From positions 62,001 to 126,000 of the forward strand of contig NC_007765.1 of the NCBI RefSeq assembly GCF_000092045.1: DNA of 64,000 nt, given 5' to 3'. Below are positions 30,783 through 33,049 of the stretch, one piece after another. This stretch comes from Rhizobium etli CFN 42 (GTDB lineage: Bacteria; Pseudomonadota; Alphaproteobacteria; Rhizobiales; Rhizobiaceae). The notes beneath the pieces were generated by a model, which was not told the origin of the DNA, did not search any database, and saw only the letters and a list, made by a program, of their open reading frames with translations. Position numbers and translations under genes: made by a program. The stretch's first letter is position 1, and each line of letters opens with the position of its first letter.

Positions 30783-31559
30783 ATGCCAGGCGTAACCCGA
30801 CTTTCGGTCCGCAATATCCGCAAGAGCTTCGGCACGCACGAAGTGCTGCGCGGCATTTCCCTCGACGCCGAGGACGGCGACGTGATTTCGCTGCTCGGCG
30901 CCTCCGGCTCCGGCAAATCGACCTTTCTGCGCTGCATCAACCTGCTGGAAACCGCCAGCGACGGTGAGATCTGGGTCGATGGCGAACACATCGAGATGGT
31001 TCACAAGAACGGCAAGACAAGGCCGGCCAGCCAGAAGCAGGTGGACCATATAAGATCCGAACTCGGCATGGTGTTCCAGTCCTTCAATCTCTGGTCCCAT
31101 ATGACGATCCTGCAGAACGTCATCGAAGGGCCGATCCATGTGCTGAAGCGGCCGCGCGCCGACTGCATCGCCGAGGCCGAAGCGCTGCTCGAAAAGGTCG
31201 GCATCGCGGACAAGCGCCACGCCTATCCCGCCCATCTCTCCGGCGGCCAGCAGCAGCGCGCCGCGATCGCCCGCGCTTTGGCGATGAAGCCGAAGGTCAT
31301 GCTCTTCGACGAGCCGACATCCGCGCTCGATCCGGAACTGGTCGGCGAGGTGTTGCGCGTCATGCGCGCGCTTGCCGAGGAAGGCATGACCATGCTCGTC
31401 GTCACCCATGAGATGAGCTTTGCCCGCAACGTCTCCAACCGCGTCGTCTTCATGCGCGAAGGATTGGTCGAAAGCAGCGGCAAGCCGGACGAGATGTTCG
31501 GCAGCGGCGCCTCGCCGGCCTTCCGCCAGTTCATCGGCCATTTCGGAACAGGCCAATGA
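30783..31559 (+). CDS. Polar amino-acid ABC transporter, ATP-binding protein
   Basis: 258 residues, HisP/GlnQ-type. Walker A LLGASGSGKSTFLRC near residue 40, signature LSGGQQQRAAIARAL near residue 153, Walker B KVMLFDEPTSALDPELV near residue 173, and the switch His in VVTHEMSFA. The stop overlaps the start of the HAL-like gene by ATGA, so transporter and enzyme are made together. Confidence 0.9.
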   Translation: MPGVTRLSVRNIRKSFGTHEVLRGISLDAEDGDVISLLGASGSGKSTFLRCINLLETASDGEIWVDGEHIEMVHKNGKTRPASQKQVDHIRSELGMVFQSFNLWSHMTILQNVIEGPIHVLKRPRADCIAEAEALLEKVGIADKRHAYPAHLSGGQQQRAAIARALAMKPKVMLFDEPTSALDPELVGEVLRVMRALAEEGMTMLVVTHEMSFARNVSNRVVFMREGLVESSGKPDEMFGSGASPAFRQFIGHFGTGQ

Positions 31560-33049
31560 CGGTCATCATCGATCAAATGCTGACCTGGCGCGACGTCGCG
31601 CGCGCCGGGGCGGGCGAAGCACTTGCGCTGTCGCCGGCCGCCTGGGCGCGGGTCGAGCAGGCAAGCCGCATCGTCGAGCGCATCGTCGAGACCGGCGTGC
31701 GCGCCTATGGCGTCAATACCGGCGTCGGCGCGCTCGCTGATACCGTGGTCGATCGCGCCTCGCAGAGCCTGTTGTCGCGCAGCATCGTGCTCAGCCATGC
31801 CTGCGGCGTCGGGCCGCTGCTCGCTGCTCGCGAGGTGCGCGCCATTATCGCCGCCCAGATTGCCAACTTCGCTCACGGCCATTCCGGCGTGCGCCGCGAG
31901 ATCGTCGCGCATCTCGCCGCCTTGCTTGAGCATGATTGCATTCCCGACGTGCCGTCGAAAGGCTCGGCCGGTTATCTCACCCACAATGCCCATACCGCGC
32001 TTGTGCTGATCGGCGAAGGCAGCGCGACGCTTGCTGGCCTGCGCATGAGCGGCCGTGAAGCGCTGGCGGCGATCGGTCTTCAGCCGCTGGTTCTCGGCGC
32101 AAAGGAAGGCCTGAGCCTCGTTAACGGCACGGCTTGCGCCACCGGCCTGACGGCCTTGGCGCTCTCCCGCGCCGAGCGGCTGCTCGACTGGGCCGATGCC
32201 ATCGCGGCGCTGACGCTGGAGGCGGCAGGCTGCCAGATCGCTGCCTTCGACGAGGCGGTGCTGGCGTTGCGCCCGTCGCCGGGAATTGAAAAGGTCGGCG
32301 CCGCGCTCCGGGCACGTCTTGCCGGTAGCGGCCTCGTCGCCGCCGCCCTGGGCCGGCGCACTCAGGATGCGCTCAGCCTTCGCTCTGTGCCGCATGCCCA
32401 TGGCGCCGCCCGTGATGTTTTCGACAATTCCGCCCGCATCACCGATCAGGAACTTGCCTCGGTAACGGACAACCCGGCTGTGTCAGGCACGCCGGAACAG
32501 CCTGTCGTCTCCTCCGAGGCGCATGCGGTCGCCCCGGCGCTCGGGCAGGCCGCCGACAGCCTCGCCATTGCGGTGGCGCAGATCGGCGCGATCAGCGAAC
32601 GGCGCATGGACCGGCTGGTCAACCCGCTGGTGAGCGGCTTGCCGCCGTTCCTGGCAAGCGATGCCGGCAGTCACTCCGGCTTCATGATCGCTCAATATAG
32701 CGCCGCCGCGCTCAGCAACGAAAACCGCCGGCTGGCGGCACCGGCGGCCCTGGACGGCGGCCTGACCTCTGGTCTGCAGGAGGATTTCCTCGCCCATCCG
32801 ACAGCCGCCGCCGGCAAGCTGCTCACCGTCATCGACAATGCCGAATATATCCTGGCGATCGAGCTGATGGCCGCGGCGCAGGCGCATGATTTCCTGGCAG
32901 CGACGGCGGCGCGGGCGGTGGGCACGGATCTCGTCCATCAAGCCGTGCGTGAACATGTGTCTCATTATGGCGACGAACGGCCGCTGAACGGCGATATCGA
33001 GGTGGTGCGCAGTCTGATCCGCGAGACCGCGCCGCCACCGGTCAGGTGA
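31556..33049 (+). CDS. Histidine/aromatic ammonia-lyase homologue lacking the MIO tripeptide
   Basis: 497 residues, clearly of the HAL/PAL fold: RAYGVNTGVGAL (Tyr51), LSHACGVGPL (His81), LSLVNGTACATG (Asn190), TDNPAV near residue 304 and LQEDFLAH (Glu409). The cofactor loop, however, reads VPSKGSAGYLTHNAH: aligned with KGSVGASGDLAPLAH of hutH in this window, exactly Ala-Ser-Gly is missing, giving a three-residue gap with co-linear flanks. The catalytic Tyr of QDPYCIRC is also lost: here QDALSLRS, Leu273. Without MIO and Tyr, the normal deamination mechanism is not available, so it either does different chemistry or is a binding/regulatory protein. Coupled by ATGA to the ABC ATPase gene; the whole frame is intact with normal codon use. 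Confidence 0.85.
   Translation: MTVIIDQMLTWRDVARAGAGEALALSPAAWARVEQASRIVERIVETGVRAYGVNTGVGALADTVVDRASQSLLSRSIVLSHACGVGPLLAAREVRAIIAAQIANFAHGHSGVRREIVAHLAALLEHDCIPDVPSKGSAGYLTHNAHTALVLIGEGSATLAGLRMSGREALAAIGLQPLVLGAKEGLSLVNGTACATGLTALALSRAERLLDWADAIAALTLEAAGCQIAAFDEAVLALRPSPGIEKVGAALRARLAGSGLVAAALGRRTQDALSLRSVPHAHGAARDVFDNSARITDQELASVTDNPAVSGTPEQPVVSSEAHAVAPALGQAADSLAIAVAQIGAISERRMDRLVNPLVSGLPPFLASDAGSHSGFMIAQYSAAALSNENRRLAAPAALDGGLTSGLQEDFLAHPTAAAGKLLTVIDNAEYILAIELMAAAQAHDFLAATAARAVGTDLVHQAVREHVSHYGDERPLNGDIEVVRSLIRETAPPPVR

Follow-up and report, generated by a model that had tools for sequence, protein, structure and literature searches.

Histidase expels ammonia from histidine by means of two catalytic elements, a 4-methylideneimidazole-5-one (MIO) group formed from an Ala-Ser-Gly tripeptide and a tyrosine (Tyr280, Pseudomonas putida numbering). 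What does a histidase-fold protein do when both are gone? The question is raised by a gene at positions 31556-33049 of a 64,000-nucleotide stretch of the Rhizobium etli CFN 42 genome (contig C6; NC_007765.1, positions 62,001 to 126,000), henceforth termed the window. We consider it probable, from the sequence and its relatives, that the encoded protein is an MIO-independent betaine lyase that converts hercynine (N-alpha-trimethylhistidine, histidine betaine) into urocanate and trimethylamine and feeds the histidine utilization (hut) pathway. The sequence, the clade to which it belongs, co-varying residues, the operon context and a predicted fold are shown; the lyase chemistry, the substrate of the lyase and that of its importer, the roles of individual loop residues and the regulation are inferred from them.

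Loss of both catalytic elements from an intact fold

The reading frame is intact and encodes 497 residues with a PF00221 domain and a predicted histidase fold; the structure was predicted as a monomer, whereas histidase is a tetramer with an active site shared between subunits. An original prediction made from the DNA letters had described an ammonia-lyase homologue with a long, intact frame from which exactly Ala-Ser-Gly is missing and in which Leu273 replaces the catalytic Tyr. Alignments bear out the frame, the residues and their coordinates. Whereas HutH of P. putida (1b8f) and the HutH encoded in the window carry Ala-Ser-Gly/MIO and Tyr280, the lyase has neither: its loop reads KGSAGY---LTHNAH against KGSVGASGDLAPLAH in histidase, i.e., the three MIO-forming residues of HutH are gone and the next Asp has become Tyr (Tyr140). 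No equivalent of the tripeptide is present elsewhere in the loop. Phe329 of the HutH motif NFHAEP is likewise exchanged, for Ala.

To describe relatives of this kind, we defined a clade by a loop of the form GS-x-GY-[LI] that is three residues short, leaving Leu at the Tyr position as an independent feature; the window lyase has both. Residues were counted in 164 distinct sequences (166 minus two duplicates); a short open frame, L097, was dropped as well. Leu occupies the position of the catalytic Tyr in 84/84 sequences of this Tyr-loop clade and in 6/6 sequences resembling ergothionase, while Tyr is kept in all 71 tripeptide proteins (66 Ala-Ser-Gly, 5 Ser-Ser-Gly) and in 3/3 aminomutases. 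Tyr140 is present in all 84 clade members by class definition, and His143 in 83, against Pro in 69 of the 71 histidases. His81, Gln270, Arg276 and Glu409 are invariant in the clade; Tyr51 (one gap), Asn190 and Lys183 each occur in 83 of 84. The persistence of Tyr51, His81, Asn190 and Glu409, noted in the prediction for the single protein, thus extends to 83-84 of 84 sequences. Tyr381 is found in 84/84 clade members and in 34/71 histidases, with Lys in its place in 5/6 ergothionase-like sequences. At the level of sequence, the pair of motifs GS-x-GY-[LI] and QD-x-L-S separates the clade from histidases, and the loop alone separates it from the ergothionase-like group.

Distribution and descent of the Tyr-loop clade

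A search of 151 Rhizobiaceae genomes gave some match in 126 at E 1e-50. Among them, 23 genomes, that of R. etli CFN 42 included, hold a match of 57-100% identity (E <=1.3e-158; next best 6.6e-83), and the Tyr loop is present in 23/23. Across 398 Pseudomonadota genomes, matches at E <=1e-85 were obtained in 28; 23 of these carry the Tyr loop and the other five, which were dropped, are tripeptide-bearing histidases (L080-L084). In a GTDB scan of named genomes, 38 of the best 80 of 589 loci have the Tyr loop; of the others, Ala-Ser-Gly is present in 37 and Ser-Ser-Gly in five. Among the genomes with the Tyr loop are Paenibacillus eucommiae, a Sulfobacillus acidophilus bin and, besides Pseudomonas aeruginosa PA7, numerous further Pseudomonas, as well as a Polaromonas, a Rhodoferax bin, Pokkaliibacter, Prodigiosinella and Serratia quinivorans. 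Plasmids of Priestia megaterium and Klebsiella likewise carry a Tyr-loop lyase.

When the window lyase is compared with four relatives, the ratio of nonsynonymous to synonymous substitution rates (dN/dS) ranges over 0.08-0.19, with one dS, 1.5, close to saturation; the range is 0.075-0.144 for the 460-codon core of hutH and four relatives. On sequence evidence, the lyase is a selected protein of a conserved MIO-less clade that spans phyla, not a relic, as the prediction had supposed in ruling out decay. Decay or a sequencing error was rejected on the conserved clade and the low dN/dS. The conserved MIO-less clade that a family alignment and tree were to look for is found, in place of scattered degenerate copies.

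The first tree was built after removal of sequences above identity limits and kept 20 clade, 16 MIO and 4 ergothionase-like rows, with six added later. With the loop columns included, the Tyr-loop sequences form one group (SH-aLRT, the Shimodaira-Hasegawa-like approximate likelihood ratio test, 93). When the loop and QD columns are left out, a quick tree splits this group (3 changes), and a careful tree recovers it as one group at 65/92, at a node that is not starred. The trees fit one loss of MIO as well as two. The ergothionase-like sequences form a clade of their own at 100/100, with the window lyase outside. Long branches lead to the Klebsiella row and to three ergothionase-like rows.

Current annotation does not mark off this clade. 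The lyase scores 449.0 bits on the hutH model TIGR01225, below the cut-off of 539.15, yet a Paenibacillus clade member reaches 586.0, so that TIGR01225 fails to separate the MIO-less clade from histidases. The best protein match of the window lyase (98% identity, full length) is an R. etli plasmid "histidine ammonia-lyase 2", and where clade proteins have a name, it is histidine ammonia-lyase or HAL/PAL/TAL family ammonia-lyase; judging from one Klebsiella row, some Klebsiella members are perhaps named aromatic amino acid ammonia-lyase.

Gene neighbourhoods of the lyase

In the window, the lyase gene forms an operon with importer genes, to the right of hutD, hutU, hutG, hutH, hutI and hutF (Table 1). 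The translational coupling to an ATP-binding cassette (ABC) transporter ATPase gene that had been predicted is seen as a 4-base ATGA overlap between that gene and the lyase start. HutU of the window scores below the cut-offs of thiourocanate hydratase and S-methyl-thiourocanate hydratase. A HutC-type regulator of the kind that is divergent from the operon accompanies the importer and lyase genes even in loci without detected hut enzyme genes; the two HutC-type genes of the window are adjacent and convergent. Near the lyase, on the opposite strand, positions 34590-37151 encode a large oxidoreductase with flavin adenine dinucleotide (FAD) and GcvT domains, of the dimethylglycine/sarcosine dehydrogenase kind, to which a close match (96%) occurs in only one of 20 other Rhizobiaceae loci (L034).

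Table 1. Coordinates of the window features, and of FAD oxidase genes that directly follow the lyase in other Rhizobiaceae loci
Feature	Locus	Position	Strand	Basis or remark
hutD	window	19034..19627	-	PF05962 187.8 bits
hutU, canonical urocanate hydratase	window	19633..21306	-	TIGR01228 976.2 bits, cut-off 375
hutG, N-formylglutamate deformylase	window	21336..22142	-	TIGR02017 403.1 bits, cut-off 278.75
hutH, canonical MIO histidase	window	22339..23874	-	GSVGASGDLAPLAH, QDPYCIRC; TIGR01225 723.1 bits, cut-off 539.15
hutI, imidazolonepropionase	window	23871..25265	-	TIGR01224 430.4 bits, cut-off 298.15; true start probably further in
hutF, formimidoylglutamate deiminase	window	25100..26602	+	TIGR02022 611.9 bits, cut-off 413.05; true start probably further in
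Second HutC-type repressor	window	26627..27385	+	TIGR02018 298.4 bits, cut-off 220
HutC-type repressor, divergent from importer-lyase operon	window	27418..28173	-	TIGR02018 295.5 bits, cut-off 220
Periplasmic amino-acid-type binding protein, HisJ/ArgT-like	window	28299..29207	+	TIGR01096 205.3 bits, below 256.35; start uncertain
ABC permease, HisQ-like	window	29221..30039	+	matches below equivalog cut-offs; start codon uncertain
ABC permease, HisM/ArtM-like	window	30050..30754	+	matches below curated cut-offs
ABC importer ATPase, HisP-like	window	30783..31559	+	PRK10619 338.6 bits, below cut-off 466
MIO-less histidase-fold lyase, predicted hercynine trimethylamine-lyase	window	31556..33049	+	497 residues; PF00221 463.9 bits
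Ala138-Gly139-Tyr140 codons, junction without the Ala-Ser-Gly of histidase; Tyr140 fills the place	window	31967..31975	+	alignments
Leu273, replacing the catalytic Tyr of histidase (Tyr280)	window	32372..32374	+	alignments
FAD oxidase	L035	11229-12389
FAD oxidase	L036	8148-9347
FAD oxidase, N-methyl-L-tryptophan-oxidase-like	L037	10819-11964
FAD oxidase	L039	8157-9326
FAD oxidase, in two pieces	L044	10823-11698		second piece from 11737
FAD oxidase	L046	13196-14374

Among the best 80 GTDB loci, a hut gene lies within 5 kb of the lyase in 36/38 Tyr-loop loci versus 21/42 others. Within the same distance, the Tyr-loop loci have a betaine-type importer in 33 cases, a histidine-type importer in five and either in 37, compared with 0/42 tripeptide-bearing loci. 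Fisher's p of 1.6e-17 overstates the difference: Pseudomonas supplies most of the 38 loci, the 42 controls belong to other taxa and lie in part on short contigs, and the importers used as references stem from loci of the clade, with identity limits set by us. The importer adjoining a clade lyase varies by lineage: ProXWV-like with an OpuAC binding protein, OpuC-like, BCCT or HisJQMP-like.

For the 22 other Rhizobiaceae genomes with a clade member, context was taken from 21 (L034-L053 and L104; G140 was left out). In the first 20 loci the importer is of histidine type in 13, ProXWV in five, OpuC in one and absent in one; L104 has an OpuC-type importer. A HutC-type gene is present in 19/20, and hut enzyme or hutD genes lie within the flanking DNA taken in 8/20. 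In six of the 20, an FAD oxidase gene (PF01266) stands directly 3' of the lyase.

A second lyase gene beside hutXWV and hutH in Pseudomonas encodes a member of the same clade, with the Tyr loop, Leu and about 50% identity to the window lyase, in the same kind of operon; its importer is ProXWV-like, whereas that of the window is HisJQMP-like. In L089 and L090 the genes run hutU, permease, ProX-ProW-ProV, Tyr-loop lyase, hutH, hutI, hutG; the L090 lyase has the same sequence as one recorded under Pseudomonas poae. We take this second lyase to be HutH1 of P. fluorescens, whose gene Zhang and Rainey reportedly found dispensable for growth on histidine. No function of Pseudomonas hutH1 was found among the open-access papers listed. 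PA5093 of P. aeruginosa, presumably annotated as a histidine/phenylalanine ammonia-lyase, would be that species' member of the Tyr-loop clade. A 2025 paper on P. aeruginosa names PA5093 hutG (PMC12772324).

The draft genome of P. eucommiae gives a single PF00221 match, the clade lyase, and a single urocanase match, which adjoins it; this urocanase is canonical by curated score and falls below the cut-offs of thiourocanate hydratases. A urocanase match is present in each of the 11 clade genomes checked, a single one in nine, and 10/11 have at least one further PF00221-family member of unspecified type. On the Klebsiella plasmid, hutG, imidazolonepropionase, a permease, hutU, an OsmV-OpuBB-OpuBB-OpuCC importer, the lyase, Ves (HutD-like), a YvoA-type repressor and hutF make up a self-contained module, with no second PF00221 match on that plasmid.

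Predicted reaction, alternatives and meaning

From these contexts we infer the reaction in three steps. The hut genes near clade lyases and the canonical urocanase of P. eucommiae indicate that the product should be urocanate; the betaine-type importers beside clade lyases indicate that the substrate should be a betaine; and a betaine that gives urocanate on loss of its amine is hercynine. The lyase would take the beta proton from hercynine and expel trimethylamine, and HutU, HutI, HutF and HutG would convert the resulting urocanate into glutamate. A quaternary ammonium leaves readily by itself, so that the electrophilic MIO, which activates ammonia in histidase, would be unneeded. The former MIO loop appears rebuilt around Tyr140 and His143, to which we tentatively assign roles in this reaction, while Tyr51, His81, Asn190, Gln270, Arg276 and Glu409 may have been retained to hold the imidazole and the carboxylate. 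The HisJQMP-like importer encoded upstream presumably brings in the substrate, and a HutC-type regulator may control the route. Of the new activities that the original prediction had envisaged, a lyase without MIO is the one favoured; conserved pocket residues and operon context point to a urocanate-feeding lyase and away from an isomerase, a hydratase or pure ligand binding.

Several observations weigh against hercynine as the substrate or against the generality of the route. The importer of the window is of histidine/arginine type, not betaine type, the Pseudomonas importer lies as near to hutH as to the Tyr-loop lyase, and the ProU-like HutXWV of Sinorhizobium was reported by Boncompagni to be itself a histidine importer, which together make importer type suggestive only. 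The 38 GTDB loci, being mostly Pseudomonas, are not independent. No hut enzyme gene was found within the flanking DNA taken in 12/20 Rhizobiaceae loci, and neither an importer nor a hut gene was found near the Sulfobacillus lyase of the GTDB scan (L110). The Klebsiella module looks most persuasive, yet its lyase is the lone exception at His143, Lys183 and Asn190, and may have a different activity. In the one same-genome pair compared, dN/dS is somewhat higher for the lyase (0.111) than for hutH (0.075). Finally, ergothionases differ from the clade at several pocket positions, so that they offer an analogy to the chemistry and not a shared active site.

Ergothionase, which expels trimethylamine, is the only characterized MIO-less relative found in the open-access literature. 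Were the window lyase such an enzyme, it would remove trimethylamine from ergothioneine or its oxidized forms to give thiourocanate or sulfonated urocanate. The Treponema denticola enzyme (6s7j) shares with it the histidase fold, the absence of MIO and Leu for the catalytic Tyr, and a tree uniting both MIO-less groups in one clade is not rejected (approximately unbiased test, p 0.753; that tree scored 1.84 higher). The fold and Leu273 first suggested this identity, but loop length, Tyr381, clade membership and a separate ergothioneine cluster led us to abandon it. The loop of the ergothionase-like proteins is one residue shorter than that of histidase (6/6), the clade loop three; at the column of 6s7j Lys383, which we take to be the catalytic Lys of ergothionase, 5/6 have Lys but the window lyase has Tyr381. 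The window lyase is closer to the probable histidase 7tqr (293.2 bits) than to 6s7j (176.8 bits). The cluster in question lies on contig C2 of R. etli (L085, C2:351000-370900, 6346-13859) and encodes a thiourocanate hydratase (1047.9 bits, cut-off 930), which is the only other urocanase-family gene of the genome, together with thiohydantoin desulfurase, ErtE and ErtD, likewise above cut-offs, and a divergent MIO-less lyase. This third lyase of the genome falls with T. denticola ergothionase in the separate clade of six and is encoded together with thiourocanate hydratase and desulfurase, whereas the window lyase is near canonical HutU. One further genome (L098) has both kinds, a Tyr-loop lyase in a hut operon and an ergothionase-like gene beside a glycine-betaine-type binding protein. 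We therefore regard an ergothionase identity as improbable.

It appears similarly improbable that the lyase is a second histidase, using a different, MIO-free mechanism to release ammonia from histidine. Many clade members sit in hut operons, the window importer is HisJQMP-like and no other family member was found in P. eucommiae, but MIO and Tyr280 are both absent, fully linked, and the further family members in 10/11 clade genomes make a redundant histidase less likely. It is unlikely, if slightly less so, that the substrate is another N-methylated or betaine amino acid, or several of them, such as N-alpha,N-dimethylhistidine or a non-histidine betaine. The FAD oxidase genes behind the lyase, whose products could demethylate mono- or dimethylhistidine, suggest that the substrate is dealt with in more than one methylation state, and the 12 Rhizobiaceae loci without a detected hut enzyme gene fit a substrate of this kind; coupling to hutU, hutI and hutG, on the other hand, demands an imidazole acrylate as product, and a tertiary or secondary amine should, on chemical grounds, be a poor leaving group without MIO. 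In our view, a paralogue without catalytic activity, binding histidine or urocanate and regulating HutH or assembling with it, is very improbable. Two catalytic elements are lost, the two genes are adjacent in Pseudomonas, and histidase is tetrameric; against this, the draft genome of P. eucommiae yielded no HutH, the rest of the pocket varies little or not at all, and in the same 12 loci, which lack hutH in the flanking DNA taken, the lyase has its own importer.

Among the ergothionase-like relatives, two on Rhizobium plasmids (L058, 1-12607, and L188), called hutH, have a GSIGAA-DLAP loop; 6s7j matches the L058 lyase at 264.7 bits. Their neighbours are HutC, glycine-betaine binding protein, ABC importer, short-chain dehydrogenase/reductase and MaoC-type genes, with a coenzyme A (CoA)-transferase in L188. 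As a guess, their product may be an aryl-acrylate handled as CoA ester and their substrate another aromatic betaine, e.g., tryptophan betaine. In a third such lyase, on pSymA of Sinorhizobium meliloti (L190, 5001-6569), the loop reads GSVGQA-DMTLLSH and Leu replaces the catalytic Tyr; its record is devoid of gene annotation.

Returning to hercynine, titles cited in one paper indicate that it is made by mycobacteria and fungi (PMC7653990), and according to another, a crust cyanobacterium gives off histidine betaine, and the compound was depleted in desert biocrusts yet used by none of the isolates (PMC4595634). Among the open-access papers listed, neither an activity nor an enzyme for hercynine degradation was found. 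With a little less confidence than for the window lyase itself, we lean towards a widespread histidine-betaine route made up of a betaine importer, an MIO-free trimethylamine-lyase with a Tyr loop, hut enzymes and HutC regulation, which would explain the second "histidase" and HutXWV in Pseudomonas, the rhizobial plasmid lyase and the plasmid modules. If so, entries named "histidine ammonia-lyase" in Rhizobium, Pseudomonas, Paenibacillus and others would be a trimethylamine-producing betaine lyase, a source of trimethylamine that public records currently name histidase, and the puzzle of the two Pseudomonas hutH genes would be solved. The family would then illustrate that a protein-derived cofactor can be dropped once the substrate supplies its own leaving group.
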